Of a stretch of 64,000 nucleotides of DNA, positions 19,638-63,997 are shown in pieces. Source of the stretch: Microbacterium azadirachtae (GTDB lineage: Bacteria > Actinomycetota > Actinomycetes > Actinomycetales > Microbacteriaceae); the NCBI RefSeq assembly GCF_000956545.1, contig NZ_JYIT01000079.1, forward strand, positions 1 to 64,000, given 5' to 3'. Made by a program: the position numbers and the translations under genes. The notes beneath the pieces were generated by a model. That model was not told the origin of the DNA. It worked only from the letters and a program-made list of their open reading frames with translations, and searched no databases. The first letter of the stretch is position 1; each line of letters begins with the position of its first letter.

Positions 19638-19655
19638 CATCGGCCTTTCTGTGTG

Positions 19656-22051: not shown

Positions 22052-22076
22052 GTGACCGGTCACGGACAAGTGTGAC
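22052..22076. promoter_or_regulatory. LacI-family operator upstream of araD
   Basis: GTGACCGGTCAC (22052-22063) is a perfect 12-bp palindrome with the central CG of LacI-type operators, and a half-site TGTGAC follows at 22071-22076. It lies 42 bases before the araD start and just past the lacI-type gene. A one-mismatch copy, GTGACCGGTCTC, is found at 25955-25966 before the arabinoside importer. Confidence 0.75.
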
Positions 22077-22140
22077 ACCCGGGCACCGGGTCGTCAAGAC
22101 CTCGACGCCGCGGCGCTCAGGCGCTCAGCCGCTCAGCCGC

Positions 22141-45585: not shown

Positions 45586-45618
45586 TTGATCGCTTCACAA
45601 ACGATTATCGATTAGTGT
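45586..45618 (+). promoter_or_regulatory. promoter and operator of the unknown-glycan importer operon
   Basis: In an AT-richer island, CGATTATCGATT (45602-45613) overlaps a -10-like TAGTGT (45613-45618), with TTGATC (45586-45591) as a distant -35 candidate. The same 12-base word occurs, in the same orientation relative to transcription, before the beta-helix gene, and a variant occurs before the GntR gene. Confidence 0.65.
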
Positions 45619-45660
45619 ATCGTCGCGGATGCCCCCCACCCGCATCAGGAAGGATCAACG

Positions 45661-46938
45661 ATGATCAAGGGCCGCCTCATCCCCGCCGCAGGCCTCGCCG
45701 CGCTCGCCGCCGTCGCCCTCGCCGGCTGCAGCACCGCCGCCGCGCCCTCGGGCTCCGACGCCACCGGCTCCTCGAAGGTGACGCTGCACGTGCTCGTCAA
45801 CGTCACGCCCAACCTCACCGAGGAGTACTGGAACTCCCTCGTCACGCCGTTCGAGAAGAAGAACCCGGACATCGACGTCGTCATCCAGAACCCCGGCGCC
45901 GAGGGCGTCGCGGCTGCGGTCCCGCGCCTGCTCGCCTCGGGCGACGCTCCCGACGTCGTGCAGTCGCTGGCCCCCACGGCCGAGCTCGCCCCCGAGCTCG
46001 TGGACCTGTCGAAGTACGCCTGGGCCAAGAAGGGCCCGCTCGCCGACCAGTACTCGATCGACGGGAAGAACTACATGGCGGGAATCGGCGTGCAGCTGCA
46101 GAGCCTCGTCTTCTACAACAAGAAGGCGTTCAGCGACGCGGGCATCGCCGCCCCTCCGAAGACGGTCGACGAGCTCACCGAGGACCTCGGCAAGATCAAG
46201 GCCGCCGGCTGGCAGGTGCCCGTGCAGACCGGCGGCGACTGGATGACCAGCCACACGCTCCAGGTACTCGGGCTGCCCACGATCGTGTCGCAGGATCCGA
46301 AGTTCTACCAGGACATCTCCGCGGGCAAGACCACGTTCAGCAAGGCATACGGACCGGCGGTCGAAACCTATGCGGAGTGGGTGTCGAAGGGGTACATCCC
46401 CAAGGAGGCCCTGGGCATCAAGTACCCCGACGCCGAACAGGCGTTCCTCAGCGGCAAGAGCGCGATCTACCCCATGGGCAGCTGGTTCGTCGGGTCCCAG
46501 GCCAAGGCGGCCGACTCCGCCGACATCGGCGTGTTCCGCGCCCCGGCCGAGAAGGCCTCGGAGGCCCCGGCGATGGGCGCGAACATCGCGAGCCCCTACT
46601 CGATCCTGAACACGAGCAAGAACCAGGAGGCCGCGGCCAAGCTCATCGAGTACCTCACGACCGACAAGGCCGCCGTCGCGTCGCAGCTCAAGGTCGATGG
46701 CAACTACCGGGACGGCTACACGTACGAGATGAGCCCCCTCGGCGAGGAGCTCCAGAAGATCGTGTCCGACACCAAGGCGTCCTCGTACACCCCGACCGGC
46801 GGCGGCTACGGCGAGCGCACCATGCCGACCGGGTACTCCGGCGAGATCAACACCCAGACCCAGGCGCTGCTGGGCGGCGCCCCGGCGGCCGACGTGCTCA
46901 AGAGCATGGACGACTGGTTCGCCGCGAACGCGGGCTGA
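45661..46938 (+). CDS. ABC sugar-binding lipoprotein, unknown glycan
   Basis: 425 residues. The signal and lipobox are IPAAGLAALAAVALAGC. LHVLVNVTPNLTEEYWNSLVTPFEKKNPDIDVVIQNPGAEGVAAAVPRLLASGDAPDVV is the N-lobe of a CUT1 binding protein, and IYPMGSWFVGSQ the hinge region. AGGAAGGA lies before the ATG. It heads a seven-gene operon with two permeases and four enzymes. The ligand is probably an oligosaccharide released by the secreted proteins of this locus. Confidence 0.92.
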   Translation: MIKGRLIPAAGLAALAAVALAGCSTAAAPSGSDATGSSKVTLHVLVNVTPNLTEEYWNSLVTPFEKKNPDIDVVIQNPGAEGVAAAVPRLLASGDAPDVVQSLAPTAELAPELVDLSKYAWAKKGPLADQYSIDGKNYMAGIGVQLQSLVFYNKKAFSDAGIAAPPKTVDELTEDLGKIKAAGWQVPVQTGGDWMTSHTLQVLGLPTIVSQDPKFYQDISAGKTTFSKAYGPAVETYAEWVSKGYIPKEALGIKYPDAEQAFLSGKSAIYPMGSWFVGSQAKAADSADIGVFRAPAEKASEAPAMGANIASPYSILNTSKNQEAAAKLIEYLTTDKAAVASQLKVDGNYRDGYTYEMSPLGEELQKIVSDTKASSYTPTGGGYGERTMPTGYSGEINTQTQALLGGAPAADVLKSMDDWFAANAG

Positions 46939-46957
46939 CGCCGGGGGCGATGAGATC

Positions 46958-47974
46958 GTGACGATCACGCGTTCCTCCGGGGGCGGGACGGCTGCGGCCG
47001 CCCGTCCCCGGGACCCCGCGGCCGAGGAGGAGAGCAGGAGCAGCGCCGCCCGCGCCGGGACGACCACCCGGGGCCCCCGCAGAGTGAGCACGGCGCGCCG
47101 CCTGCAGCGCGCTCTCCCCGGCTTCCTCATGAGCGCCCCGGCCGTGGCCGTGTTCATCGCGATGTTCGTGATCCCGATGATCCTGGCCTGCGTGCTGAGC
47201 TTCACGAACTGGAACGGCTACAGCCTGCGCTTCACCTTCATCGGCTGGGAGAACTACATCCACGCGTTCCGCAACCCGCGCTCCGCGCAGGCGGCCCTGT
47301 TCACGGGCGTGATCGCGGTCGCCGGCACGATCCTGTGCAACGGGGTCGGTCTGGCGATCGCGGCGCTGATCTCCGGATCCGGTCGCGCGAACGCGCTGCT
47401 GCGCACCGTCTTCTTCTACCCCTATGTGATCAGCGGCCTGATCATCGGGTTCCTCTGGTCGGCGATGCTGGCCCCGCAAGGCGCGGTGAACGGCGTCCTC
47501 GGGGCGATCGGCCTCGGACCTCTGCCGTTCCTCACGGATCCGACGTTCGCCAAGGCGAGCGTGATCCTCACGATCGTGTGGTCGCACTTCGGCTTCAACA
47601 TGATCCTGTTCCTCGCCGGCATCAAGTCCGTGCCCGCGGAGTACTACGAGGCGGCGACGGTGGACGGGGCGAGCCGCGGAGAGCAGTTCCGCAGCATCAC
47701 GTTCCCCCTGATCGCCCCCGTGTTCACCGTGAACCTCGTGCTCACGCTCGTCGGCCTGCTGAAGGCGTACGACGTCGTGCTGGCGCTCACCGACGGCGGG
47801 CCCGCGGGGTCGACGCAGACCATCGTCTACCAGATCCTCAAGGACTCGTTCGCCCGCTCGGCGCTCGGCCTCGGCGCCGCGCAGTCCGTCATCCTGCTCA
47901 TCGTCACGGCGGCGGTCGGGCTGGCCGTGACCCTCATCCGCCGCCGAGCCGAGCAGAAGGTCGTGGACGACTGA
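46958..47974 (+). CDS. ABC sugar permease (MalF type), unknown glycan
   Basis: 338 residues from a GTG start; a second GTG about 42 codons in (VSTARRLQRALPG) is a possible alternative, because the first 40 residues are Ser/Arg-rich and unstructured. Six helices follow, with the EAA loop EYYEAATVDGASRGEQFRSITFPLIAP. It overlaps the next permease by one base (TGATG). Confidence 0.88.
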   Translation: MTITRSSGGGTAAAARPRDPAAEEESRSSAARAGTTTRGPRRVSTARRLQRALPGFLMSAPAVAVFIAMFVIPMILACVLSFTNWNGYSLRFTFIGWENYIHAFRNPRSAQAALFTGVIAVAGTILCNGVGLAIAALISGSGRANALLRTVFFYPYVISGLIIGFLWSAMLAPQGAVNGVLGAIGLGPLPFLTDPTFAKASVILTIVWSHFGFNMILFLAGIKSVPAEYYEAATVDGASRGEQFRSITFPLIAPVFTVNLVLTLVGLLKAYDVVLALTDGGPAGSTQTIVYQILKDSFARSALGLGAAQSVILLIVTAAVGLAVTLIRRRAEQKVVDD

Positions 47975-48891
47975 TGAGCACCGCCACCAGCCTCAACCCG
48001 GCGGTGCGCCCGCCGTCCTCCCGCGGCCGCGTCCGCCGTTCCGCGGGGCGCACGCGGGCGCCGCTCCTGGCCCGTCTCGCGCGCGGGATCGTGCTGACGG
48101 CCGTCGCGGTCGTCATGATCGTGCCGCTGTACACGATGGTGATCAACGCCTTCAAGCCGCAGAAGGAGATCATCGAGAACCCGCTGCTGATCACCCCGCA
48201 GAGCTTCACCCCCGAATTCCTCTGGGCCGCCATCACGAGCAGCAAGTTCAACGTGATCGCCGCGTACGGCGTGACTCTCCTGTTCGTCGTGCTCGTCAAC
48301 GTGTGCTGCATCCTGCTGTCGGCCCCGGTCGCGTACGTGATCGCGCGGGGACGCTCGAAATGGCACATGGGACTGCTGCTGCTGTTCGTGTCCGGCCTGT
48401 TCATCCCGGGTCAGGTCACCCTGATCCCCGTGGTGTTCGTGCTGCGCGTGCTCGGGCTCATCAACACGATCCCCGGATTCATCCTGTTCGAGACGGCGGC
48501 CACCCTCCCGGTGACGATCTTCCTGTTCTCCGCCTACCTGCGGTCGGTGCCGCGGGACATCGACGAGGCCGCGGCGCTCGACGGCGCCGGACGCATCCGC
48601 GCCTTCTGGACGTGCATCTTCCCGATCATGCGCCCGGTCGTCGCGACGATCGTGGTGCTGAACTCGATCGGGGTGTGGAACGACTTCGTGAGCCCGCAGA
48701 TCATCCTCGGCCCGAGCTCGGGGATCTACACCGTGACGACCGGCGTGTACGCCGCGGTCGGGGAGTTCTCCACCGACTACACACAGGTGTTCCCGACCCT
48801 GCTGCTCGCCATCGCCCCCGCGCTGGTCTTCTTCGTCCTCATGCAGAGGCACATCATCGGCGGCCTCGCCGCCGGAGCCACGAAGGGCTGA
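47974..48891 (+). CDS. ABC sugar permease (MalG type), unknown glycan
   Basis: 305 residues, six helices after an Arg-rich tail. The EAA loop is DIDEAAALDGAGRIRAFWTCIFPIMRP and the C-terminus is MQRHIIGGLAAGATKG. It follows its partner directly and ends two bases before the start of the 646-residue protein, so all are one transcript. Like the other importers here it has no ATPase and probably shares an MsiK-type ATPase encoded elsewhere. Confidence 0.92.
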   Translation: MSTATSLNPAVRPPSSRGRVRRSAGRTRAPLLARLARGIVLTAVAVVMIVPLYTMVINAFKPQKEIIENPLLITPQSFTPEFLWAAITSSKFNVIAAYGVTLLFVVLVNVCCILLSAPVAYVIARGRSKWHMGLLLLFVSGLFIPGQVTLIPVVFVLRVLGLINTIPGFILFETAATLPVTIFLFSAYLRSVPRDIDEAAALDGAGRIRAFWTCIFPIMRPVVATIVVLNSIGVWNDFVSPQIILGPSSGIYTVTTGVYAAVGEFSTDYTQVFPTLLLAIAPALVFFVLMQRHIIGGLAAGATKG

Positions 48892-48893
48892 CG

Positions 48894-50834
48894 ATGACCC
48901 ATCTGATCACCTCGCCGCTGCGCGCGATCCCCGCCTGGGCCGTGCTGCAGCGCCGCCTGTTCGACGAGGTCGAGGACGCCAGGCGGCTGTTCGCCGAGCG
49001 GTACACCCTGCCGGACGGACGGCTCCGCGGCGTCGCGGAGTTCGAGGACCGCGACGGCGTGGACGACCTGTACGAGCCGTTCTTCAACTGGCCCGCGTTC
49101 TACCTCCTCGGAGGCGCGGACGCGGCGCTCGCCGACGCCAAGCGCTGCTGGGAGGGCGTGACCGCCCAGCTCGCCGAAGCCGGCATGCTCACCGACGAGT
49201 ACGAGAACGGCTACGACTGGTTCCACCAGGGCGAGTCGGTGCTGCTGTTCGCGGGCATCCGTGCAGCGGACCCCTCCGACGCGGTCTTCGCCGAGCGCGC
49301 GCGCCGCTTCGCCGCGCTCTTCACCGATCCCGCGCGCGGCAACTACGACGCCGAGCACAACATCATCCGCGCCCCGCACAACGGCGCGCTCGGCGCCCGC
49401 GCAGGCCTGGAGGATCCGCAGCCGGAGGGATCCCCGCTCGCCGGGCGGGTGCGCCCCTACTCCGCCGAGCGCGCGGAGATGCGCCCGTACGGGCTGCCGA
49501 TCCAGGGGCTCGACGGGATCGCGGAATGGGACGATCTGGCCGACCCCGGCAACGCGCAGCGCATGGCGGACGAGATGCAGCGCCGCGCCGCCGGCGACGT
49601 CCCCGTGAACCTCGCCGCGACCTCGCTGCCTGTGCTGCGCTGGCTCGACGACGGGGACGAGGGATCCGCGGCCTGGATCCGCCGCTATGTCGAGGGGTGG
49701 GTTGCGCGCGCGGCGGCGAACGACGGCCTCGTGCCCGACAACGTCGGCCCCGACGGGACCGTCGGGGCCCTGCAGGACGGCCGCTGGTGGGGCGGTCACT
49801 ACGGCTGGGCCTGGCCGCACGGCTTCCACTCGGTGGCCATGAGCGCCCTCATCGGCGCGATCAACCACTCCCTCGTGAGCGGCCGGGACGACGCCCTCGA
49901 CCTGGTGCGATCCGCGCTCGACACGGTGCTGGCGCACGCGATCCCCGGATCCGTGGAGGACTCCGTCTACAGTCTGCGCGGCGGCTGGCGCGCCCGCCTG
50001 GGCGATGCCGCGTCGCGCCCCGGCCTGCTCGTGCCCTACCGTCACGGCATCGAGGGCTGGTTCGACTTCGGCCCGCTGCAGCTCGATGTGCCGGTGTGGC
50101 TGTGGTGGTGGAGCCGCACGCCGGCCGATCGCGCGCTGCTCGACCGCGCCCGCGCGGGGCTTCCCGAGGGGACCGACCTCGTGGCGCCGTTCCGCGACAA
50201 GGAGGAGGCGGGGCACGAGGCCGGCTGGATCGCGTTCCTGGACGGAGAGCTGCCCGACTACCCGGAGCGCGCCCTGGAGATGGCGCTGGGCCAGGTGTCG
50301 CGCCGGGTGGCGATGATGCTCGGCGACGACGCCGATCCCGACGCCGCGCACCTGCATTTCTGGCAGCGGGTCAACCCCGTGGTCACGGAGGTGCTCACGC
50401 AGCTCGTCGGCGGCGCTCCGCAGATGCTCTACAACGGCGGCCTCCCCTTCACCGCGCTCCGCTACGAGGACGTCGACCTCGGACGCCCCGGGCTCCCCCG
50501 CGACGTGGCCGCACTGGTGCACCGCATCGACGACGCGGGCGTCGGGCTGCGCCTGGTCAACACGTCCGTGGTGCGGTCCCGCACCGTGCGGGTCCGCGGC
50601 GGTCGCTTCGGCGCCGACCGGATCGTCCGGGTCAGCGCGACCGTCGAGACCCCTGGGTCCTTCCCCGGCGCGTCCGGCTCGTACCGCGCGGCGCAGAAGC
50701 CGATGCGGACCGTCACGTGGGGCTGTGACGACGACCTCGTCGTCACCCTGCCGCCGGCGCACGTCGCCGACCTCGACCTGATCATCGCCCGCGGGGCAGG
50801 AACGCCCCGCCTCGACCCCGGAGGAGACGCATGA
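48894..50834 (+). CDS. 646-residue cytoplasmic protein, unassigned (possible alpha/alpha-toroid glycan enzyme)
   Basis: 646 residues, no signal peptide or membrane segment. Helix-rich stretches with aromatic motifs are suggestive of an (alpha/alpha)6 toroid: YEPFFNWPAFYLLGG, ENGYDWFHQGESVLLFAGI, EHNIIRAPHNGALG, DGRWWGGHYGWAWPHGFHSVAMSALIGA, RHGIEGWFDFGPLQLDVPVWLWWW and FWQRVNPVVTEVLTQL. Many acidic and His residues lie in these motifs. The last 120 residues look beta-rich. Such folds occur in several glycoside hydrolases and polysaccharide lyases, but I do not recognise the family. Located between importer genes and sugar-acid enzymes, it is the best candidate for the intracellular step that opens the imported oligosaccharide. 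Confidence 0.8.
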   Translation: MTHLITSPLRAIPAWAVLQRRLFDEVEDARRLFAERYTLPDGRLRGVAEFEDRDGVDDLYEPFFNWPAFYLLGGADAALADAKRCWEGVTAQLAEAGMLTDEYENGYDWFHQGESVLLFAGIRAADPSDAVFAERARRFAALFTDPARGNYDAEHNIIRAPHNGALGARAGLEDPQPEGSPLAGRVRPYSAERAEMRPYGLPIQGLDGIAEWDDLADPGNAQRMADEMQRRAAGDVPVNLAATSLPVLRWLDDGDEGSAAWIRRYVEGWVARAAANDGLVPDNVGPDGTVGALQDGRWWGGHYGWAWPHGFHSVAMSALIGAINHSLVSGRDDALDLVRSALDTVLAHAIPGSVEDSVYSLRGGWRARLGDAASRPGLLVPYRHGIEGWFDFGPLQLDVPVWLWWWSRTPADRALLDRARAGLPEGTDLVAPFRDKEEAGHEAGWIAFLDGELPDYPERALEMALGQVSRRVAMMLGDDADPDAAHLHFWQRVNPVVTEVLTQLVGGAPQMLYNGGLPFTALRYEDVDLGRPGLPRDVAALVHRIDDAGVGLRLVNTSVVRSRTVRVRGGRFGADRIVRVSATVETPGSFPGASGSYRAAQKPMRTVTWGCDDDLVVTLPPAHVADLDLIIARGAGTPRLDPGGDA

Positions 50835-51613
50835 GCGCCGACCTGATCCGCCCCGACTTCGCCCTGCCCGTGCGCGGCGCGGCCTACGCCCGTCCGCCAC
50901 GGGAGCTCGTGGAGGACTTCGGCGGCCTCTCCTCTGCCACCGCGTGCGCCAAGCTGCACGGTCTCGGGATCCGGCACAGCTACGTCGACGGGCCGGAGCC
51001 CCTCGCCGCCGGCAGCCGTGTGGTCGGATCCGCGCTCACCCTGCAGTTCATGCCGCAGCGCGAGGACATGGCCTCCGGGCAGGGCCAGGAGTACGCCGAG
51101 CGGCACACCGCGCTCTGGCACGTGCTCGAGGCCGTGCAGCCGGGCGACGTGCTCGTGATCCAGGCGTACGGCAGCCGCTTCTCCGGGTGCATCGGCGACA
51201 TCCTCGCGCGCTACTTCGCGCGCAAGGGCGGCGCGGGGATCGTCGTCGACGGACGGATCCGCGACGCCGGCAGGATCCGCGAGCTCGGCATCCCGGTGTG
51301 GTCCACGGGCACGACGCCGCACTACGCGTCGCAGTCCGAGCTGGTGCCCTGGGCGTATGACGTGCCGGTGGCCGTGGGCGGCGCCCTGTGCATGCCGGGC
51401 GACCTCGTCGTCGCCGACGACGACGGCCCGGTGGTCGTGCCGCAGGCGATGGCGCGCCAGGTGATCGACTCGGCCCGCGACCACGAGGAGTGGGAGGTGT
51501 TCAGCCGCGCGCGCCTCGACGACGGCGCCCGCCTGAGCGACTACTACCCCCTCACCCCCGACACCCGCGAGGAGTACGAGGCATGGCGTTCCGTGCAGAG
51601 CTCCGTCCGCTGA
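50831..51613 (+). CDS. RraA-like aldolase (HMG/CHA aldolase family)
   Basis: 260 residues. LSSATACAKLHG near the start and GAGIVVDGRIRDAGRIRELGIPVWSTGTTP (the G-x-x-x-D-x-R-x-R-D core) are the RraA/HMG-aldolase hallmarks, with VMPGDLVVADDDGPVVVP-like sequence following. Members cleave 4-hydroxy-2-oxo acids such as 4-hydroxy-4-methyl-2-oxoglutarate, or lack activity and bind RNase E. Next to a sugar dehydrogenase and a lactonase, an aldolase acting on a 2-keto-3-deoxy sugar acid is the likelier role. Start overlaps the previous stop by four bases. Confidence 0.87.
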   Translation: MSADLIRPDFALPVRGAAYARPPRELVEDFGGLSSATACAKLHGLGIRHSYVDGPEPLAAGSRVVGSALTLQFMPQREDMASGQGQEYAERHTALWHVLEAVQPGDVLVIQAYGSRFSGCIGDILARYFARKGGAGIVVDGRIRDAGRIRELGIPVWSTGTTPHYASQSELVPWAYDVPVAVGGALCMPGDLVVADDDGPVVVPQAMARQVIDSARDHEEWEVFSRARLDDGARLSDYYPLTPDTREEYEAWRSVQSSVR

Positions 51614-52557
51614 GTCCGGGGCCGGTCGGCGACGTCGCCCTGCGCGACGACCTCGGCCTCGGCTGCGCGCCCATCGGCAACCTCTACACGCCGGTCGCCG
51701 ACGACGACGCCGTCGCCACGGTGCGCGCGGCGCTGGACGACGGGGTCCGCTTCTTCGACACGGCCCCGCACTACGGCGCCGGTGAGAGCGAGCGCCGGCT
51801 CGGGCTCGCCCTCCAGGGCGTGCCGCGGGACGACTACGTGATCGCGACCAAGGTGGGACGGCGGATCGTCGACGCCGCCGGGGATCCGGTCGCCGGATCC
51901 GCATCCGGGCACGACACCGTCGCCGACCTCAGCCGCGACGGCGTGCTCCGCAGCCTCGAGGCGAGCCTCGCGCGGCTGCGCACCGACCGGATCGATCTGC
52001 TGCACCTGCACGACCCGCTCGACGTCGACGCGGGCCTGGCCGGAGCCATGACCGCGCTCGTCGAGCTGCGGGACCAGGGCGTGGTGCGCGCGATCGGTGT
52101 GGGCATGGGCAGACTCGCCCCGCTGATCCGGTTCGCCGCCGAGGCCCCGGTCGACGTGATCATGGAGGCCGGGCGGCTCACTCTCCTCGACCGCACCGCC
52201 GAGGACGAGCTCCTGCCCCTCACCGCGTCGCGCGGCATCGGCGTGATCGCGGCCGGCGTCTACAACACCGGGATCCTGGTCGCGCCGCAGACCGCGCCGT
52301 ACTACGAGTACAAGCCCGCACCCCCGGAGCTCGTCGCCCGTGCGCTGGCGCTCCAGGACGCGTGTCGCGCCCACGGCGTCGAGCTCGCGACCGCGGCGGC
52401 GCGCTTCCCGCTGCGGCACGGCGCCGAGGGCGTGGTCATCGGCGCGCGCACCCCCACCGAGGTGGCCGCGTTCGTGCACGGCCACGACGTGCGGATCCCG
52501 GACGCGCTGTGGTCCGAGCTCGATCGCATCGCCGCCCCGGGGACGGCCGTCTCCTGA
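51583..52557 (+). CDS. aldo/keto reductase, L-fucose (D-threo-aldose) dehydrogenase type
   Basis: 324 residues. Catalytic D59, Y64, K90 and H143 are visible in FFDTAPHYGAGESE, IATKVGR and LLHLHDP. LGLGCAPIGNLYTPV at the start and GVIAAGVYNTGILV later match the D-threo-aldose 1-dehydrogenase group, which oxidises L-fucose, L-galactose or D-arabinose to the lactone. The start overlaps the RraA gene by 31 bases; GGAG lies eight bases before the ATG, and the N-terminus needed by the fold begins there. Its stop overlaps the lactonase ATG. Confidence 0.9.
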   Translation: MAFRAELRPLSPGPVGDVALRDDLGLGCAPIGNLYTPVADDDAVATVRAALDDGVRFFDTAPHYGAGESERRLGLALQGVPRDDYVIATKVGRRIVDAAGDPVAGSASGHDTVADLSRDGVLRSLEASLARLRTDRIDLLHLHDPLDVDAGLAGAMTALVELRDQGVVRAIGVGMGRLAPLIRFAAEAPVDVIMEAGRLTLLDRTAEDELLPLTASRGIGVIAAGVYNTGILVAPQTAPYYEYKPAPPELVARALALQDACRAHGVELATAAARFPLRHGAEGVVIGARTPTEVAAFVHGHDVRIPDALWSELDRIAAPGTAVS

Positions 52558-53360
52558 TGCGGATCGTCGACGCGCACGTGCACCTGTGGGACGTCGACGC
52601 CCTGCCGCTCCCGTGGTTCCGCGAGGAGCTGGGGCTCCCCCGCCGCGCCCTGCCCGAGGACCTCGGCGCGCTGCTGCGCGCGACGGGCGCAGGCGCCGCG
52701 ATCGCAGTGCAGGCGGCGGACTCGGTGGCCGAGGCCGAATGGCTCGCCGATGTCGCGGAGCGGGATCCGCTGGTGCGGCGCGCGGTGCTGCAGTACGCCC
52801 CCTCCCCCGGCGCCCCGCTCGGGCGCACCGCGACCGCGTCGGGTCCGTCGACGACGGGGATCCGGGCCGCCGTGCCGCAGTTCGCCCCCGACCTGTCCGA
52901 TGTCGAGGGCCTGGACGGCCTCGCCGCCGCGGCCGGGGAGGCGGGACTCGTCGTGGAGCTGCTGCTGCGCCCCGAGCAACTGTCGGGAGCCGCCGCCCTC
53001 GCCCGCCGCCACCCCGCCACGACGTTCGTCCTGTGCCATCTGGGGCTGGGCGCGTCCGTGCCGGATGCGGGGTGGATCCGCGATCTCGTCACGGCCGCCG
53101 CCGCGCCGAACCTGCACGCGAAGACCTCCGGCGTCGTGCACCCCTCGCGCTCGGCGGCGGAGCTGCGCCGCATCCTCGGCGCGGCGCTCGACGCGTTCGG
53201 CGCCGGTCGCCTGCTGCACGGCAGCGACTGGCCGATCTCGGCGCGGCACACGCCCTACGAGGCGGTCGCGGCACGGATCGCCGATGCGCTCCCCGCACTG
53301 TCCGCCGCAGACGCCGAGGCGCTCTGGGCGGGCACCGCCGAACGGCTCTACCGGCTCTGA
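52557..53360 (+). CDS. amidohydrolase family lactonase (L-fuconolactonase-like)
   Basis: 267 residues. IVDAHVHLWD (H7, H9) and the late LLHGSDWPIS motif place it in the COG3618/amidohydrolase-2 group, which includes L-fuconolactonase and rhamnonolactonase. A central VLCHLGLGASVPD carries another metal or catalytic histidine. It would open the lactone made by the preceding dehydrogenase. It is the last gene of the operon and converges on the GntR gene with 24 bases between stops. Confidence 0.9.
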   Translation: MRIVDAHVHLWDVDALPLPWFREELGLPRRALPEDLGALLRATGAGAAIAVQAADSVAEAEWLADVAERDPLVRRAVLQYAPSPGAPLGRTATASGPSTTGIRAAVPQFAPDLSDVEGLDGLAAAAGEAGLVVELLLRPEQLSGAAALARRHPATTFVLCHLGLGASVPDAGWIRDLVTAAAAPNLHAKTSGVVHPSRSAAELRRILGAALDAFGAGRLLHGSDWPISARHTPYEAVAARIADALPALSAADAEALWAGTAERLYRL

Positions 53361-53384
53361 GCGCCGACCCCGCGGCGCGGAGAC

Positions 53385-54047: not shown

Positions 54048-54056
54048 TCTAGGTCC

Positions 54057-54070
54057 ATTATCGACTATCG
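54057..54070 (-). promoter_or_regulatory. GntR promoter with operator
   Basis: On the minus strand CGATAGTCGATA (54059-54070) overlaps a -10-like GATAAT (54057-54062), between the SGNH gene stop and the GntR start. The longer frame CATTA-N-CGA-NNN-TCG-N-TAATG is a palindrome. Binding here would block the regulator's own promoter. Confidence 0.65.
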
Positions 54071-57600: not shown

Positions 57601-58728
57601 GCTGTGCGAGACCGTCACGTGCGAGCCGCCGAGGATCACGGCCGCCGTGGCGCGTCCGTACTCGAGGGCGAGGTCGTCGAAGGTCACGTAGGAGGCGCCG
57701 TCCGTGCGCAGCATCGGGTCCTTGAGCGTGGTCACCGTGATGTCGCCGCGACCGGCCGTGAACGCCGCGTTCGGCATCAGGTAGAGGACGCCCTTGTCCC
57801 GGTCGATGTAGTACTCGCCCGGCGTGTCGAGCTCCTCGAGCAGGTTCTGCGCGAAGTGGAAGTCGGGGAACCAGCTCTTCATGATCCCGCTCATCTCGCC
57901 GTAGCGGAGCGTGATCGTCTTCTTCTCCGTGTCGATGGACTGGATCCTGTTGTACGACCACTCCCAGCTGTAGCCGAAGATTCCGTCGAGCCACACGTCG
58001 CCGGCCTGGGTCCAGTACTTCGGCCGGTCGTAGCCGTAGGTGAACGTGCCGCCGCGGTCCTGCAGGTCCGCGTCCTTGCGCGTGGGGCCGGGATCCACGA
58101 TGTCGCCCATCTGCACCGTGGGCTTGGCGGCGTCGGCGTTCGGCCAGCGCGCGAGCGTCATCCCCTGCCCCTCGATGTAGAGCTCCATCGGCGGCGTGGT
58201 GCTGACGTCGTTGGCCTTCCAGTAGCCGTGACGGCTGAGCTGGCCGTAGTCGGTGAGCCCCAGGGCGCGCAGGTCGATCTGCCGCACCTTGTCGCGCGCC
58301 GAGGTCTCGACGATGCGGTCGCGCACCGCCGGGTCGGTCACGCCCGTGAACCCGTCCTTCGGCAGGGTCCGCCCGCCGGAGAGCGTCGCCCGCTCACCCG
58401 GGTAGGAGCGGTACGTGATGGGCGCGTCCGCGGTGCCCGAGTCCTGCGCCCCGAGCTGGAACGATGCGTCCCGCTGATACGTCCCCTGCCGGAGGTAGAC
58501 GGTCGTCCCTCCCGCCGGCAGGGATCCTGACCCCTTGAGCGCGCGGATGCGGTCGCGAGCCCCTTCGAGCGTGGCCAGGGGCGCATCGATCGCGCCCGAG
58601 GCGGCGTCGTCGCCTCCGGGCGCGATGTAGAGGGCGCCGTCCGCGGCGGCCGCTGCGGACGCGGCGCCCGCGGAGAGGGCCGTGCCGAGCAGGGCGGCGA
58701 GGGCGAGTGTCGTCAGTGCACGCTTCAT
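54655..58728 (-). CDS. secreted GH141-type beta-helix protein with Ig-like domains
   Basis: 1357 residues. A Sec signal peptide (about 1-28, ending ASAAAAADG) leads into a right-handed beta-helix of about 700 residues. YIAPGGDDAASGAIDAPLATLEGARDRIRALKG and PITYRSYPGERATLSGGRTL are the typical opening of GH141-like proteins, a family with alpha-L-fucosidase and xylanase members. Next come a Big_2 Ig-like domain (about 755-830), a concanavalin-type domain, a second Big_2 domain (VTGLTVDAASVSMNVGERRSV), another LamG-like domain and a C-terminal Big_3-like domain. No LPxTG or membrane anchor is seen, so it is probably released or held by glycan binding. GGAGA before ATG. Confidence 0.85.
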   Translation of the reverse strand: MKRALTTLALAALLGTALSAGAASAAAAADGALYIAPGGDDAASGAIDAPLATLEGARDRIRALKGSGSLPAGGTTVYLRQGTYQRDASFQLGAQDSGTADAPITYRSYPGERATLSGGRTLPKDGFTGVTDPAVRDRIVETSARDKVRQIDLRALGLTDYGQLSRHGYWKANDVSTTPPMELYIEGQGMTLARWPNADAAKPTVQMGDIVDPGPTRKDADLQDRGGTFTYGYDRPKYWTQAGDVWLDGIFGYSWEWSYNRIQSIDTEKKTITLRYGEMSGIMKSWFPDFHFAQNLLEELDTPGEYYIDRDKGVLYLMPNAAFTAGRGDITVTTLKDPMLRTDGASYVTFDDLALEYGRATAAVILGGSHVTVSHSDIRNFSDGGVLINSPGRYTYDGIPVNRGGTDHAVTDSRLTHIGGIGVVLQGGDKTTLAPGRNRVENSEIADFAYYHKAYNPGVMFDGVGNVAKNNKIHDAPHPGIIVYGNDHLFERNEVYDVCKQFHDLGAIYMNSGKTPQQRGHVFRENYFHDIGVGMAGVEGIYADNFTWDLEITKNVFVNMGNSGIKSGSADYIEARNNVFIDNLVPYDNYEQWMGNQEGNVVDRDYMPAWKQVFADNHDFVGTPYLEKYPELAHFFEDDHYFPDHSTFAQNVVWNPNRKPSGLNAQGAKDGKNLLNYETNLVATSDPGFVDAAHGDYRLKPDAAVFAQIPGFQAIAFDKIGLQGKVGQSQSPDRVALEGIAFPTDAVRVDVGHDVRAAAVPLPWNAADAKATYVSADPAIATVAADGTISGAAPGTTTVTATAASNPALTATVAVTVDEGDGVLHFTDFESGSNGWPTDPNRKVVDDGTGDHVYRIVKGANAVLPRDFTSFVLDLDVTTPAGAAPAGSGFVIYDRNGKGGGYVRYRNAAAGPTWTIFDDAWKVVAEKVLPADQALPAGKTSHVRMAVQDGRIRISVGGTLVLDGADPAPGAAGRVGFYVEGYPSLDVDDIGFSISAVPVTGLTVDAASVSMNVGERRSVAAKIAPEDASDLRVAWTSADPSIATVDATGRIAAVGAGATTITAASVAEPAATAAVAVTVADAAYPTVRLDAQLKDAANWSASDVISVGDAGVTITGQGVHGYKAERFGDALLQFDADFGAFDGGWYGFQVRSDQTGIPAWQNSNTGYLFLVKQDTFELQSWSPGQTMLDVIPNTVIAPNSTHRIEVGAVKETGGTRVVLRVDGKTVWNTLDARQNLRIGADGFFNVYHYAKTNTLAVRPTPPPATITGICWAADADPKTRYVVGDALDVTGMLLGVRWSDGTLTTAQVAEDMVSGFDSSKVRPHQVLTIAYEGQSTTLDVSVRPKIKQDEAEVPRCG

Positions 58729-58784
58729 CGCGTCTCCGATGTCTGAGAGGGGTGCCGCGGGGCGGCGTCTTCACAACCCTTCGG

Positions 58785-58814
58785 ACACTAGCGCAATCGA
58801 TAATCGACTATCAA
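58785..58814 (-). promoter_or_regulatory. beta-helix operon promoter with operator in the spacer
   Basis: Read on the minus strand: TTGATA (58814-58809), an 18-base spacer and TAGTGT (58790-58785). The spacer contains CGATTATCGATT (58806-58795), identical to 12 bases in the importer promoter at 45602-45613. A repressor bound here would block RNA polymerase. Confidence 0.65.
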
Positions 58815-58920
58815 GCATCGATCCATTGAAGAGGAGCCGAGGAAGAGAGGTGAACGAGCGCATGTCACAGATTCTTTCAATTCACATCAACTGCGCTCGT
58901 TACCTGATCGTGATCCGGTC

Positions 58921-58953
58921 GTGTTGACGTGAACACAACCTGCCGGAAATACT
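58921..58953 (+). promoter_or_regulatory. promoter of the second importer operon with a separate palindrome
   Basis: TTGACG (58924-58929), an 18-base spacer and AATACT (58948-58953) form a good promoter. GTGTTGACGTGAACAC (58921-58936) is a near-perfect palindrome over the -35. The GntR-type motif is not seen on this side, so this unit may answer to a different regulator. Confidence 0.55.
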
Positions 58954-59017
58954 GAGGACTCGAGCCGGAAACCCCCGATCCCGCTCTCCCGCTCTTCCCC
59001 GGTCAAGGATGCCCAAG

Positions 59018-59938
59018 ATGACAGAAGCAATCAGCTCTTCACGGAAAACAACAGGCGCGAAGCCTCGTCGCCTCAGTGACGGGATGTTCGCGTTCCTGCT
59101 CACCGTGCCCGGGCTCGCCCTGCTCCTCGCCGTGGTCGTCTATCCGCTGATCACGGCGCTCGTCACGGCGTTCTTCAAACAGAGCCTCGTCACCCCCGGG
59201 CGCGAGTTCGTCGGACTGCAGAACATCATCGACGTGCTGCAGGGCGACTTCTTCCGCCTGCTCGGCCAGACGCTGGTGTTCACGCTCGGGACCACGATCG
59301 CGCCGTTCGTGATCGGCTTCGGCCTCGCGCTGGCGCTCAGCACGAGGATCCGCGGCACCAAGGTGCTCCGCGGCGTCATGCTCATCCCGTGGCTCATCCC
59401 CGGGGTCGTGGTCTCGTTCCTGTGGATGTGGATCTTCAACGCCAACTACGGGGTGATGAACGCCCTGCTCGAGGGCGTCGGACTCATCGACGAGCCCCAG
59501 GCATGGCTCGCGCACCCCGCGACCGCCATGATCGCCGTCATCGTCGCGAAGACGTGGCAGTCGTTCCCCTGGATGATGGTCATGCTCCTCGCCGGCCTGC
59601 AGACCGTGCCCCACGAACTGCACGAGGCGGCCGAGATCGACGGCGCGGGCACCGTGCGCCGGTTCTTCTCCATCACCGTGCCGCAGATGCGCGGCATCAT
59701 CGGACTCGTCCTGCTCCTGGAGTTCATCTGGAACTTCCAGCACTTCGACATCATCTACGTGCTCACCGGCGGCGGTCCCGCCGGCGCCACGCAGACGTTC
59801 GCCACCGCGGTGTACGAAACCGCGTTCACGGGCTTCGACCTCGGCCATGCCGGAGCGATCGGCCTGCTCTGGATGATCCTGCTGCTCGGCCTCGTCGTCG
59901 TCTACGTCCGCTTCTCGGAGAGAGGGGAGAAGCGATGA
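59018..59938 (+). CDS. ABC sugar permease (MalF type), second importer of the locus
   Basis: 306 residues, six helices starting at MFAFLLTVPGLALLLAVVVYPLITALVTAFF. The EAA loop is ELHEAAEIDGAGTVRRFFSITVPQMRG. ATG 59018 is preferred to one three codons earlier because AAGGA lies seven bases before it and inside the other option. It overlaps the next gene by four bases. Confidence 0.9.
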   Translation: MTEAISSSRKTTGAKPRRLSDGMFAFLLTVPGLALLLAVVVYPLITALVTAFFKQSLVTPGREFVGLQNIIDVLQGDFFRLLGQTLVFTLGTTIAPFVIGFGLALALSTRIRGTKVLRGVMLIPWLIPGVVVSFLWMWIFNANYGVMNALLEGVGLIDEPQAWLAHPATAMIAVIVAKTWQSFPWMMVMLLAGLQTVPHELHEAAEIDGAGTVRRFFSITVPQMRGIIGLVLLLEFIWNFQHFDIIYVLTGGGPAGATQTFATAVYETAFTGFDLGHAGAIGLLWMILLLGLVVVYVRFSERGEKR

Positions 59939-60840
59939 CCGCCGTCCTCGAGCAGCACGCTCCTGCCACCACGACCACCACCCCGCCCGCTCCCCGCCGC
60001 CGTCGCCTGCGCAGCGACCGCCGCGCGGTGAAGGTCAGCGCCTGGATCGCGATCGTGATCTTCGGCGGGTTCGCGCTGCTGCCGGTGTACTGGCTGCTGG
60101 CCACCTCGCTGACGCCGCGCACGCAGGTGTTCTCCTATCCGCCGCGCCTTTTCCCGAGCGAGATCACGTTCGACGCGTACGCGGCCCTCGCGGCCAATCC
60201 GGCGCTGTTCGGATACCTCCGCAACAGCATCGTCGTCTCGGTGATCACGGCCGTGCTGTCCGTGATCGTCTCGGCCTACATGGGCTACGCGTTCTCGAAG
60301 TTCCGCTACCGGGGCCGCCGCAGCCTCATGTACTTCGTCCTGGCGTCGCAGATGTTCCCCCAGGCCCTGCTGCTGATCACGCTGTACGCGGTGTTCTCGG
60401 CATACGGCCTGCTGAACACCTACACCGCCCTGGTGCTCTCGTTCACGACCTTCACGCTCCCCCTGTGCGTGTGGATGCTGAAGGGCTTCTTCGACACGAT
60501 CCCGGACGAGCTCATCGAAGCGGCCAGGGTCGACGGCGCCTCCCGCCTCCGGATCATCCACTCGATCGTGATGCCGCTGGCCGCACCCGGCCTCGTCGCT
60601 GCCGGCCTGTTCGCGTTCGTGCGCGGCTGGAACGACTTCATCTTCGCCCTCACCCTCGCCGGCCCCGACAAGCAGACCCTGCCGCCGGGCCTCGTCAACA
60701 CGTTCATCGGAGAGGCCTCGACCGCGTGGCCCGAGCTGATGGCCGCCTCCCTGGTGGTGTCCCTCCCGGTCGCCATCGCCTTCATCGCCCTGCAGCGGTA
60801 CCTCGTCGGCGGACTCACCGCCGGCGCCGTCAAGGGCTGA
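59935..60840 (+). CDS. ABC sugar permease (MalG type), second importer of the locus
   Basis: 301 residues. A Thr/Pro/Arg-rich tail is followed by six helices; the EAA loop is ELIEAARVDGASRLRIIHSIVMPLAAPG and the end is LQRYLVGGLTAGAVKG. The binding-protein gene follows after 29 bases. Gene order permease-permease-binding protein is the reverse of the importer at 45.7 kb, so the two importers are not a simple duplication. Confidence 0.92.
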   Translation: MTAVLEQHAPATTTTTPPAPRRRRLRSDRRAVKVSAWIAIVIFGGFALLPVYWLLATSLTPRTQVFSYPPRLFPSEITFDAYAALAANPALFGYLRNSIVVSVITAVLSVIVSAYMGYAFSKFRYRGRRSLMYFVLASQMFPQALLLITLYAVFSAYGLLNTYTALVLSFTTFTLPLCVWMLKGFFDTIPDELIEAARVDGASRLRIIHSIVMPLAAPGLVAAGLFAFVRGWNDFIFALTLAGPDKQTLPPGLVNTFIGEASTAWPELMAASLVVSLPVAIAFIALQRYLVGGLTAGAVKG

Positions 60841-60869
60841 CCGCACCCCCTCGAAGAAGAGAGAATCGC

Positions 60870-62180
60870 ATGACCTCCACCCCCATCTCCCGCCGCCGGC
60901 TGCTCTCCCTCGCCGGGCTCGGCGCCGCCGGCATCGCGCTCGCCGGCTGCATGCCCAGCGGAGGCGGCGCCGCCCCCAGCGCGACCCCGTCGGGTCTCGC
61001 TGCCGGATCCTTCACGCCCGCCGGCTTCTCCTTCGCGAGCTGGTCGCTCACCGAGGAGGCCGCTGCGCCGGCCATCAAGGCCCTGCTGGACGGCTACAAG
61101 AGCACGCAGAAGGTCGACATCGCCGAGGTCTCGTTCCCGTACAACGAGTACTTCAAGCAGCTCATGCTGCAGGTGCGCGGCGGCCAGTTCACCGGCGCCG
61201 CACACGTCGACGTGGCCTGGCTGGCGTCGCTGGCGGCCCTCGGCAAGCTGCAGGACGTGTCCGGGCTCACGAAGGATCGCGGCTACACGGCCGCGGCGCT
61301 CAAGGCGGCGCAGTTCGACGGCGTGCAGTACGGCTTCCCGTGGACGATCGGCGCGATCGGCCTCGTCACCAACTCGGAGCTGCTGGCGAAGGCCGGCGTC
61401 GACGAGTTCCCCGTGACGGTCGACGACTACGAGAAGGCGCTCAAGAAGCTCAAGGCGCTCGGCAACGGGCTGATCCCCTATGCCGCCTCGACCAAGGCCG
61501 CGCAGCTGAAGGACATCCTCATCTGGATGCAGACCTTCGGCAGCCCGCTGGTGAAGGACGGCAAGGTCGCGATCGGCGACGACGAGAGCGTCGAGGCCGT
61601 CACCTGGTACAAGTCCCTGTACGACCAGGGCCTGATCGCCGCCGACGTCGACCGCTTCGACGCGCGTTCCCTGTTCTCGCAGGGCCGCACGGCGATCTAC
61701 GACGATGCGCCGGTCGGCCGCGGCGCGGTCACCAAGGACTCCCCGGACAAGGATCTCGCGAGCAAGCTGGTCCCGCAGTCGCGCCCGGTGCTGAAGAAGG
61801 GCGACACGCCGCGGGCTCTGGTCTGGGGCGGAGCGATCGTGGTCGTCGGAGACGACAAGGGCACCCGCACCGCCGCCGACTTCGGCCAGTGGTCCACGAG
61901 CGACCTCGACGCCGTGCTCGGCGACTACAAGCTGCGCGGTCTGCCGCCGGTCACCAACGAGGCGCAGTCCTCCTCCGAGGTCGCCGCCGACGCCTTCGGC
62001 AAGCGGTTCGCCGAGCGGATCACCAAGACCGCCACGACCAACCCGTTCTGGGTGTATCCGCAGTACGCGCAGATCGAGACCGTCGTCGCCGAGCGCGTGC
62101 AGGCGGTGCTCGTGGGCCAGCAGAGCCCCCAGGACGCCATGTCGCAGGCCGGCGAGGCCGCTCAGAAGCTGATCGGCTGA
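60870..62180 (+). CDS. ABC sugar-binding lipoprotein, second importer of the locus
   Basis: 436 residues. ISRRRLLSLAGLGAAGIALAGC combines a twin-arginine motif and a lipobox, so it is probably Tat-exported. FSFASWSLTEEAAAPAIKALLDGYKSTQKVDIAEVSFPYNEYFKQLMLQVRGGQ is the N-lobe of a CUT1 binding protein. Its stop is eight bases before the secreted BNR_4 gene, which points to that protein supplying its ligand. Confidence 0.92.
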   Translation: MTSTPISRRRLLSLAGLGAAGIALAGCMPSGGGAAPSATPSGLAAGSFTPAGFSFASWSLTEEAAAPAIKALLDGYKSTQKVDIAEVSFPYNEYFKQLMLQVRGGQFTGAAHVDVAWLASLAALGKLQDVSGLTKDRGYTAAALKAAQFDGVQYGFPWTIGAIGLVTNSELLAKAGVDEFPVTVDDYEKALKKLKALGNGLIPYAASTKAAQLKDILIWMQTFGSPLVKDGKVAIGDDESVEAVTWYKSLYDQGLIAADVDRFDARSLFSQGRTAIYDDAPVGRGAVTKDSPDKDLASKLVPQSRPVLKKGDTPRALVWGGAIVVVGDDKGTRTAADFGQWSTSDLDAVLGDYKLRGLPPVTNEAQSSSEVAADAFGKRFAERITKTATTNPFWVYPQYAQIETVVAERVQAVLVGQQSPQDAMSQAGEAAQKLIG

Positions 62181-62188
62181 GGCCCCCG

Positions 62189-63997
62189 ATGACTCCTCGC
62201 ACCTGGGCGGGCGTCGCGGCCGCAGCCGCTGTGACGCTCTCCGTGCTCGCCGCTCCCGCCGCGGGCGCGGATCCGGCCTCCCCGTCCCTGGAGACCGTGC
62301 CGGTCACCGTCGACGCCTCGAACCAGTCCGGCTGGTGGAACCCGCTTGCCGTGGTCGGCGGCACCACGTACTTCGCGTACAACGTGACCGCCAACACCGG
62401 CCGGCACCAGGTGCACCTGGCGGCGCGCGCCGCCGACGGCGCCTGGACGACCGGATGCCTGCGCACGTCCGCGGGGGCCTGCGCGGACTTCCTCGACGAC
62501 AACGGGCACAACCAGCCCTCGATCGTCGTGGACGGATCCGGTCAGATCCATGCGTTCGTCTCGATGCACCACGAGCCGTGGCACTACTTCCGCTCGACGG
62601 TCGCGGGCGACGTGACCTCGCTCGTCGACGTCAGCGCCGAGATGCCCGACCAGGGCGCCGCGATCTCCTATCCGGTGACCGCGCCCGGCGCGAACGGCGA
62701 CGCCTGGCTCATGGTGCGCGTGGGAGCGGACCCCCAGGGCCGACGAGACGGCGTCCTGTACCACTACACGCCCGCGACCGGCACGTGGACGCGCGAGGCG
62801 GTGATCGCCTCCGCCGTGGGCTATTCGTTCTACGCCGACGACCTCACCGTCGACGACAGCGGACGCGTGCACATCCTCTGGGAGTGGGGGCCGTGGCCCG
62901 CCGGACCCTATCGCCACCTCGGCTCGTACGTCGTCTACGACCCGGCCACCAAGGTCTTCCGCGACGTCGCAGGCACGGCGCTCACGGCGCCCGTCCGGCC
63001 GACGGATCCGGGCGCGACGGTCTGGCGCACCTTCGCCCCCGGGGAGACCGTGAACACCGTCTCCCCGGACGCGCCCGCGGTGCAGACGGCGAAGATGGCG
63101 ATCGCCGGCGGACAACTCGTGGGCGTCTCGTATCGCTACGCGGAGCAGGGCTCCACGGCGTTCGACGTGCACTGGGCGACGTGGAGCGGCACCGGCTGGA
63201 CGGACCAGACGCTGATCGACACCCACGCCCTCGGCGGCGGGATCGACACCATCGCCGCCGTCGACGCCACCCGCTCCGGATCCGAGACCCGCGTCTACGC
63301 CGTGCTGTCGATGCCGGACTGCGGCACGGCGCGCAGCCAGGTCGTGATGCTTTCCTCGACGGGCTCGGCGTGGTCGGCGACGGCGATCGGCGCCCCGGTG
63401 TCCGGGCAGCAGCGCCTGCGCGCCGCCACGGCGGCCGACGGCGGCGACGTGCTGTACCTCTCCGCACCGGAGAAAGGCACGCTGACCTACGGCCGGGTGC
63501 CGCGCACCGGCACGACATCGACCGCGACCGTGGCCGACGTCGTGGCCGGGATCCGCGGCGACTCCGGCGGTCAGAACCTCGCCCGCACGGGAACGGCGAC
63601 CGCCACGTCGCAGCTGCGCGCCGACACCGGTCCGGAGCGCGCGATCGACGGCGTCTGCACCGACGCGAGCCGGTGGATCTCCTCGACGACCGACGCGCAC
63701 CCCGTCTACACGGTGGCCTGGGCCCAGGCGCAGCCGCTCGAGCTCGTCCGGGTGCGCAGCGGCTACTCGGTCGGCGACCCCGCCCTCTCCGTGCTCAGGG
63801 ACTTCCGCGTCGAGGTGCGCACCGCCGCGGGCTGGACCCCGATCGGATCGTTCACGGGGAACACCGCCACCACCGTCACCGCGAACGCCGGCGGGGCGAC
63901 CGCCGACGCGGTGCGCCTGGTGATCCAGACGCCGTCCGCGTCGACCACCAACGTGGCGCGCGTCTACGAGGTCGAGGCGATCGCCGCCACGCCCTGA
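62189..63997 (+). CDS. secreted BNR_4 beta-propeller with C-terminal discoidin-like domain
   Basis: 602 residues, complete just inside the window end. The Sec signal peptide is about residues 1-27 (VTLSVLAAPAAGADP). The DNGHNQPSIVVDGSGQIHAFVSMHHEPWHYFRS segment (H107, H121, H127, H128, H132) is the BNR_4 signature, and propeller blades continue to about 455. Residues about 465-600 (NLARTGTATATSQLRADTGPERAIDG...FRVEVRTAAGWTPIGSF) form an F5/8 type C carbohydrate-binding domain. BNR_4 propellers include polysaccharide lyases acting on ulvan or rhamnosyl-glucuronate linkages, so a secreted lyase is plausible but unproven. Confidence 0.83.
   Translation: MTPRTWAGVAAAAAVTLSVLAAPAAGADPASPSLETVPVTVDASNQSGWWNPLAVVGGTTYFAYNVTANTGRHQVHLAARAADGAWTTGCLRTSAGACADFLDDNGHNQPSIVVDGSGQIHAFVSMHHEPWHYFRSTVAGDVTSLVDVSAEMPDQGAAISYPVTAPGANGDAWLMVRVGADPQGRRDGVLYHYTPATGTWTREAVIASAVGYSFYADDLTVDDSGRVHILWEWGPWPAGPYRHLGSYVVYDPATKVFRDVAGTALTAPVRPTDPGATVWRTFAPGETVNTVSPDAPAVQTAKMAIAGGQLVGVSYRYAEQGSTAFDVHWATWSGTGWTDQTLIDTHALGGGIDTIAAVDATRSGSETRVYAVLSMPDCGTARSQVVMLSSTGSAWSATAIGAPVSGQQRLRAATAADGGDVLYLSAPEKGTLTYGRVPRTGTTSTATVADVVAGIRGDSGGQNLARTGTATATSQLRADTGPERAIDGVCTDASRWISSTTDAHPVYTVAWAQAQPLELVRVRSGYSVGDPALSVLRDFRVEVRTAAGWTPIGSFTGNTATTVTANAGGATADAVRLVIQTPSASTTNVARVYEVEAIAATP

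Follow-up and report, generated by a model that had tools for sequence, protein, structure and literature searches.

We analyzed positions 1–64,000 of contig NZ_JYIT01000079.1 (C79) in the 4.04-Mb genome of Microbacterium azadirachtae, a 64,000-base stretch referred to here as the window. Its right-hand part holds two adjoining gene modules, A and B, rather than one locus. Module A (45604–58810) comprises genes for a β-helix protein, an SGNH esterase, and an FCD-type GntR regulator together with an operon that encodes a solute-binding protein (SBP), two permeases, a 646-residue protein designated X646, an RraA-like protein, an aldo/keto reductase (AKR), and a predicted lactonase. Judged from sequence and gene order, module A is the Microbacterium form of the agl3R-agl3EFGXYZ catabolic locus of Streptomyces. 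We hold with moderate confidence that module A acts as an agl3-type catabolic locus by the route proposed below and that module B is a separate neighbor. The preliminary description of this DNA portrayed a single GntR-linked glycan locus that ended at 63997 and matched no named system. Measured against that portrayal, the locus is stronger in that its core is conserved, has a named relative, and comes with a candidate operator of its own; it is weaker in that it comprises two modules, contains neither a dehydratase nor an ATPase, and is cut by the window edge.

Module A and the agl3 locus of Streptomyces

The named relative is a locus (L113) whose RraA-like protein is 100% identical over 249 amino acids to the protein in PDB entry 5x15; we infer that the L113 genome is that of S. 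coelicolor. Its genes are ordered GntR, SBP, permease, permease, X646, RraA, AKR, short-chain dehydrogenase/reductase (SDR), and lactonase. The products are identical to their counterparts in the window by 49% (GntR), 43% (SBP), 54% and 60% (permeases, the second over 263 amino acids), 51% (X646), 70% (RraA), 47% (AKR), and 34% (lactonase); likeness in the same order thus extends from GntR through AKR at 43–70% identity. The SDR of L113 is 66% identical to the SDR of a fucose-type locus in a congener of M. azadirachtae (L114). Excerpts of published work describe Sco7167–Sco7165 as Agl3EFG, a sugar porter with a GntR factor (PMC3924187), and place an agl3EFGXYZ operon under repression by Agl3R and GlnR (PMC10704036). 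The synteny of L113 and the papers that name agl3 therefore provide a named relative for a system that had been left unnamed. We assigned the letters X, Y, and Z to X646, RraA, and AKR by order, as the excerpts of these papers give only SCO7165–7167 and SCO7163. Three features of the Microbacterium region are additions relative to agl3: a long GH141-type β-helix protein with Ig domains, the SGNH esterase, and module B. The literature searched contained no paper with both "agl3" and "RraA".

Profile scans (Pfam and NCBIfam) verified the families and positions that the preliminary description had given for the importer genes, the β-helix, BNR_4, and SGNH proteins, the 646-residue protein, the FCD-GntR, the AKR, and the lactonase. 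The plus-strand operon (45661–53360) is tight, with intergenic gaps of 19, −1, 2, −4, −31, and −1 bases. It begins with SBP1, a lipoprotein and the Agl3E counterpart (45661–46938; PF01547/PF13416), followed by permeases 1a and 1b, the counterparts of Agl3F and Agl3G (46958–47974 and 47974–48891; both PF00528). X646, the Agl3X counterpart by order (48894–50834), has no signal peptide by eye and belongs to no known family. The RraA-like gene (50831–51613; PF03737, NF006093 above cut-off) is followed by those for the AKR (51583–52557; PF00248; its true start may be later) and the Amidohydro_2 protein (52557–53360; PF04909). The opposite strand carries a series of three genes: that for the β-helix protein (58728–54655), that for the SGNH esterase (54664–54071), and that for the FCD-type GntR, the Agl3R counterpart (likely 54047–53385, with an alternative GTG start at 54095; PF07729, PF00392).

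A scan for X646 with one genome per species revealed 281 relatives via exact peptides, of which the best 80 loci, a set biased to close kin, were kept. Presence was counted in the 63 loci flanked on each side by 9 kb or more, using identity thresholds of our choosing and accepting a match anywhere in the fetched locus, adjacent or not. SBP1 was present in 55 of these loci, permease 1a in 56, permease 1b in 55, RraA in 57, GntR in 52, lactonase in 51, AKR in 44, the β-helix protein in 38, and the SGNH esterase in 21. Permease 1b directly precedes X646 in 68 of 69 loci (exception, L070), and X646 directly precedes RraA in 69 of the 71 loci with an RraA of at least 50% identity (61 with a short gap and 8 with a gap of 0; exceptions, L055 and L070). 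An RraA match is absent from 9 of the 80 loci, some of which lie on cut contigs. Distances between core genes correlate at 0.77 to 0.97, values that are uncorrected for the tree. The expectation that the units would be co-conserved in relatives thus holds for module A and breaks down for module B outside Microbacterium.

The putative GntR box ATTATCGAYTA has just two exact matches genome-wide, and both fall within the locus; the reversed pattern has none. One copy (ATTATCGATTA, 45604–45614, plus strand) lies 46 bp upstream of the SBP1 start, and the other (ATTATCGACTA, 54057–54067, plus strand) lies immediately upstream of the GntR start. Two overlapping box-like sites with one mismatch each (58794–58810) are found upstream of the β-helix gene. 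This shared box and the co-conserved core bear out the link between GntR and the locus that had been drawn earlier. The 80 loci (1,616,941 bases) contain 62 exact boxes, compared with none for the reversed pattern and none for each of eight shuffled patterns; their positions are close to the SBP1 start (34), GntR (8), or the β-helix gene (14), with 6 elsewhere. The exact box is near SBP1 in 34 of the 67 loci that have SBP1. Another Streptomyces (L115) has an exact box, Nonomuraea loci have a one-mismatch form, and one of the six boxes found elsewhere precedes a glucarate-dehydratase-like gene in L034. We infer that GntR binds this sequence. With the X646-RraA succession kept in 69 of 71 loci and 62 exact boxes against none in the controls, the arrangement of module A exceeds chance.

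Two observations from relatives touch on the box and the surroundings of module A. L020 has two boxes by a gene for a secreted β-helix-like protein (15823–19820) and its DUF2264 neighbor, and L021 encodes a similar protein (2731–6700; 77% alike over 608 amino acids) with a box nearby and a heparinase II/III-like neighbor; these proteins are possible further lyases under the same regulon. In Microbacterium sp. 8M, genes for citrate synthase and a PEP-mutase/ICL protein and, by cluster, an MmgE/PrpD-type gene lie upstream of module A (L003:581–4180). They form a methylcitrate-cycle-like set, and we set aside a link to propionate and treated these genes as chance neighbors.

X646, its partner enzymes, and the candidate route

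Searches with phmmer, Pfam, NCBIfam, and PDB profiles yielded no Pfam, NCBIfam, or credible PDB match for X646. A Pfam scan of 46 members revealed no credible family and no GH88 at E ≤ 1; weak rows with E values of 0.03–0.66 differed in kind and were dropped. Comparison by hhalign with one GH88 protein and one DUF2264 protein showed no relation. The alignment of the family comprised the window protein and 45 of the 80 relatives after identity and length filters. The AlphaFold model (mean pLDDT 91.1 for the whole protein and 88.0 for residues 1–520) consists of an (α/α) toroid and a C-terminal β domain. Its best structural matches are toroid glycan enzymes, with Z scores of 12.0 for the whole protein and 14.7 for residues 1–520, although helical models may score so high from common arrangement alone. 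The leading rows were 1vd5 (GH88; Z 14.7, rmsd 5.0, 306 aligned), 6shd (GH76; Z 14.6, rmsd 4.8, 288 aligned), and 1x9d (the human class I mannosidase; Z 14.6, rmsd 4.3, 375 aligned), so that GH76 and GH47 tie with GH88. Because these rows are a crowd of toroids, we claim no single family for X646. Residues D54, D57, D58, E61, D108, H111, E114, D235, and R272 are invariant in 87 sequences, including five from haloarchaea and one from Asticcacaulis. This set of residues would suit an acid-catalyzed carbohydrate enzyme. A second X646 subgroup (L078, L080, L081, and L082) lies behind another SBP-permease set and has no RraA match; in L080, a GH29 α-L-fucosidase is encoded near X646.

The β-helix protein (54655–58728, minus strand; 1357 amino acids, Big_2/Big_3 domains) appears by eye to be secreted. 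A profile built from 20 sequences (the window, L115, and 18 of the 54 listed β-helix frames) matches 9rx2 at 7.1e-64 and BT_1002 at 8.7e-34, and D504 and D544 are invariant in all 20. The catalytic aspartates of BT1002 are D523 and D564. D504 aligns to chain position 528 of BT_1002, which we take as D523 on a presumed tag offset of 5. The alignment to BT_1002 stops before D564; D544 suits the second aspartate, given a spacing of 40 versus 41 and the alignment to 9rx2. The window protein thus resembles GH141 enzymes such as BT1002 and the Wf141 endo-fucanases in its profile match and aligned aspartates, and differs from them in its low identity and extra Ig domains. It gives no GH141_M match; two Nonomuraea homologues do. 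GH141 is a multifunctional family with fucosidase, xylanase, and endo-fucanase activities.

The SGNH/GDSL esterase (54071–54664, minus strand; PF13472) has no signal peptide by eye and keeps S9, N78, D175, and H178, residues whose roles we presume, in 27 of 27 sequences. Sequence comparison indicates that the AKR is likely an aldose 1-dehydrogenase and that the Amidohydro_2 protein is probably a sugar lactonase. Both have paralogues in a second, L-fucose-type locus of the same genome on contig C84 (L088), at 42% and 31% identity, respectively. That locus encodes a lactonase, an SDR, an FAH hydrolase, an L-fuconate-dehydratase-like enzyme (FucD; 626 bits to 2hne), an AKR, and a GH29 α-L-fucosidase; it differs from module A in carrying the dehydratase, SDR, FAH, and GH29 genes.

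The preliminary description had seen two complete CUT1 importers and a full route to central metabolism, and neither stands as worded. A scan for Walker A plus signature motifs found no ABC ATPase in the 45–64 kb interval or in the contig stretch that continues past the window (L001); a single UgpC-type ATPase above the curated cut-off is encoded on contig C76. Likewise, the locus contains no sugar-acid dehydratase, and the L-fuconate-dehydratase-like gene sits on C84.

Clues to the substrate come from relatives. Relatives of FucD, SDR, and FAH adjoin module A in the congener L114, and some of them are near X646 in L015, L021, L055, L070, L077, and L113. By X646 in L034 are genes for a glucarate-dehydratase-like protein (237 bits against an equivalog cut-off of 829; its PDB matches are named probable glucarate dehydratase), a KdgD-like protein (382 bits, above the subfamily cut-off of 278, but 272 against an equivalog cut-off of 374), and a protein of epimerase fold, presumably a uronate dehydrogenase. 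Relatives of these glucarate-type genes occur in L046, L051, and L115. Four Nonomuraea loci (L063, L048, L045, and L066) contain matches to GH95, GH141_M, and GH106. Bacteroides uses GH141 on rhamnogalacturonan II (RG-II), and GH95 and GH106 are further families that it uses on this polymer. We viewed five of 12 plasmid-borne haloarchaeal X646 matches: three have pectate lyases nearby, one of them also GH28, and the remaining two have mannonate-dehydratase or mandelate-racemase-type genes. These lines converge without proof. Because L-fuconate- and glucarate-type genes adjoin module A in some relatives, we favor as the probable substrate a plant glycan with L-fucose and uronic acid, for example arabinogalactan or the side chains of RG-II. 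The locus is also carried by Microbacterium arabinogalactanolyticum (L008), although its species name is suggestive only.

These observations can be assembled into a candidate route. The GH141-type enzyme, once secreted, would attack a glycan containing uronic acid and cut it at an L-fucosyl linkage or at that of a similar 6-deoxyhexose. The resulting oligosaccharide would be imported through SBP1 and its permeases, energized by an ATPase encoded elsewhere. X646 would be the first cytoplasmic enzyme, its toroid active site splitting or rearranging the oligosaccharide, and the SGNH enzyme would take off acyl groups. The AKR and lactonase would convert the released aldose to an aldonate, which the L-fuconate pathway on C84 could finish. 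The RraA-like enzyme would act as an aldolase or a dehydratase/decarboxylase on a keto-deoxy sugar acid, rather than mainly as an RNase regulator. GntR would hold the promoters repressed until an intermediate binds.

Several results weigh against this reading. The box, present exactly in the Streptomyces locus L115, was not found at ≤1 mismatch in L113 or in the genome's own L-fucose-type locus (L088); a link to Agl3R and joint control with the fucose genes are therefore unsupported by the box. AKR (≥38%) was not found in 19 and lactonase (≥28%) in 12 of the 63 loci, and 18 of 45 β-helix matches among the 80 loci are less than 30% identical. The lactonase scores 115.4 bits against the L-fucono-1,5-lactonase equivalog NF052480, below the cut-off of 400, as does its paralogue on C84 (143.4 bits). 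Fucose-type and glucarate-type genes are each near X646 in few loci only. The excerpt of PMC3924187 names trehalose and melibiose as Agl3 inducers, and those of PMC10126417 and PMC5738090 report that RraAS2 inhibits RNase ES in vivo and in vitro.

The strongest alternative, which we nevertheless regard as unlikely, centers on uronates. X646 would be an intracellular (un)saturated uronyl hydrolase that replaces GH88/GH105, the AKR would oxidize 5-keto-4-deoxyuronate (or uronate), and RraA would form α-ketoglutarate semialdehyde in the manner of FlDet, an RraA-family protein of Flavobacterium UMI-01 that converts 2-keto-3-deoxyglucarate to this product (excerpt of PMC8563752). With these AKR and RraA steps, no dehydratase would therefore be needed. 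Beyond the FlDet chemistry, this alternative draws on GH88 topping the structural rows of X646 (1vd5, and 2fv0 at Z 12.0, rmsd 5.0, 307 aligned), with no GH88 match found anywhere in the genome. It also draws on the pectate lyases by X646 in three of the five haloarchaeal records, on kdgD and dgoD by X646 in Asticcacaulis, on the glucarate-type genes in four related loci, and on the PL42-type lyase in module B. Its structural basis is loosened by GH76 and GH47 rows within 1 Z of GH88 and epimerases within 2, at scores that unrelated helical models can reach. It is opposed further by the failure of Pfam (46 members) and hhalign (one GH88 protein) to reveal a GH88 match, and by the resemblance of the AKR and lactonase to fucose-type enzymes.

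Module B

Module B spans 59009 to about 67.4 kb of the contig, so that the window edge cuts through it. It begins on the plus strand with permeases 2a (59009–59938) and 2b (59935–60840; both PF00528), SBP2 (60870–62180; PF13416, with a Tat-type lipoprotein signal by eye), and a BNR_4 propeller (62189–63997; PF15892), which is secreted by eye. The locus does not end at 63997, as had been proposed, and continues beyond the window into genes for an FAD oxidoreductase (PF12831; contig 64043–66346) and a LacI-like protein (66418–67368). All seven fetched regions keep the order permease 2a, permease 2b, SBP2, BNR_4, FAD oxidoreductase, and LacI-like. These regions, which are cut, have DeoR in six of seven and a further conserved gene in four of seven; the latter gave no Pfam match in the one relative scanned. 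In the LacI-like protein, a sugar-binding sensor domain was matched and a helix-turn-helix domain was not, and the matched stretches of two relatives (L116 and L119) likewise showed the sensor domain and no helix-turn-helix match. A palindrome at 58921–58936 was considered as a module B operator and rejected: it is the sole exact match in the genome, but it is unconserved in seven related promoters.

The propeller shares with PL42 (FoRham1) and the former GH145 (BT3686) a BNR_4 fold and four tested lyase residues: H107, H127, Y161, and R177 align to FoRham1 His85, His105, Tyr150, and Arg166 (hand-counted, with chain numbering at +2). These residues are invariant in seven of seven orthologues. 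Overall similarity is weak, and the window protein differs in an extra F5/8 type C-like domain, whose match (PF00754) is below the cut-off at 22.3 of 28.2 bits. A PL42-type lyase that acts on Rha-GlcA-like linkages is a plausible prediction for this protein. The propeller alignment comprised the window and six of the seven fetched regions; L122 was omitted since its match contains a stop. In five of 15 genomes (G780, G781, G784, G788, and G789), the BNR_4 match ends at about residue 462–483, before the F5/8 type C-like domain, which thus seems optional. Stops also interrupt the BNR_4 matches in G780, G781, and G784 and a single piece of that in G778. Module B, which has lyase, importer, and regulator genes of its own, would serve perhaps Rha-GlcA-type caps and would have been joined to module A in Microbacterium.

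It is improbable in our judgment that the whole 18 kb forms a single regulon for one polymer. Module B does begin beside the β-helix gene in four Microbacterium regions (L116, L117, L118, and L122), a close permease 2a is found in 12 of the 80 loci, and a box-like site lies within the shared intergenic region. In Cellulomonas L021, moreover, whose genome gave no BNR_4 match, the FAD oxidoreductase gene lies upstream of SBP1, which weighs against a clean split. The box-like site is nearer the β-helix gene, however. Among 24 genomes, 15 had a BNR_4 relative and 17 the FAD oxidoreductase. In three Promicromonosporaceae (L119, L120, and L121), module B stands apart from X646, and the box was not found in these regions at ≤1 mismatch. 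In two Microbacterium-type genomes that keep module A (G257 and G779), neither a BNR_4 nor an FAD oxidoreductase match was found. We therefore keep permease 2–SBP2–BNR_4 apart from the locus into which it had been merged.

Elsewhere in the window (19696–43159) lie pentose-type genes for an FGGY kinase (19696–21291), a class II aldolase (21288–22097), a GH43 protein (32081–33649), a xylose-isomerase-like barrel (40532–41722), and a xylulokinase (41852–43159).

The RraA-like protein and the meaning of the agl3 relationship

The RraA-like protein of the window matches PDB entry 5x15 with an E value of 2.5e-120 and is ~70% identical to it over 250 residues. We take 5x15, whose PDB row reads "Putative transferase", to be S. 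coelicolor RraAS2. R144 and D145, presumably the Arg-Asp motif of RraA-fold aldolases, are kept in 72 of 72 sequences. Our identification of 5x15 agrees with a reference title in the excerpt of PMC8563752, and RraAS2 is given as sco7163 in that of PMC10126417. FlDet offers a precedent for an RraA-family enzyme that acts on a keto-deoxy sugar diacid, at 26% identity to the S. coelicolor protein according to the excerpt of PMC8563752. In Asticcacaulis, kdgD lies near X646 in place of the actinobacterial RraA, which by analogy is consistent with RraA taking the KdgD role. From sequence, we predict that RraA is likely a keto-deoxy sugar-acid lyase or aldolase. The preliminary description had called the gene an aldolase; an RraA-like gene is present, and the name denotes a fold family rather than an established reaction.

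That the protein is instead a regulatory inhibitor of RNase E/ES, its place in the operon incidental or coupling carbon supply to RNA decay, is very unlikely in our estimate: inhibition of RNase E-type enzymes is reported for RraA hexamers, RraAS2 among them (excerpts of PMC10126417 and PMC5738090), but RraA directly follows X646 in nearly all loci, R144 and D145 are kept throughout, and related RraA-fold proteins are enzymes. Gene order suggests that RraAS2-type proteins, described in the excerpted literature as RNase ES inhibitors, are mainly sugar-acid enzymes, and the two roles could coexist. At E ≤ 1e-60, RraA was found in at least 2 of 396 Actinomycetota and at least 15 of 392 Streptomyces genomes, lower bounds obtained by scoring up to six candidates per genome.

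The relationship described here joins three subjects that were kept apart in the literature searched: the agl3 operon for an importer of unsettled cargo, RraAS2 as an RNase inhibitor, and a protein that is widespread and fits no family. From it come a sharply defined candidate operator, the conserved X646-RraA gene pair, for which one structure is solved, and a few candidate substrates. We regard as nearly an even proposition that X646/Agl3X represents a family of cytoplasmic carbohydrate enzymes not described before, present in Actinobacteria, haloarchaea, and some Alphaproteobacteria, which in Actinobacteria would pass its product to an RraAS2-type enzyme. If this is true, RraAS2, crystallized as an "RNase ES inhibitor", would be a catabolic lyase of sugar acids, with the agl3 operon defining its physiological substrate. 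The function of agl3 and the catalytic role of RraAS2 thereby become directly testable.

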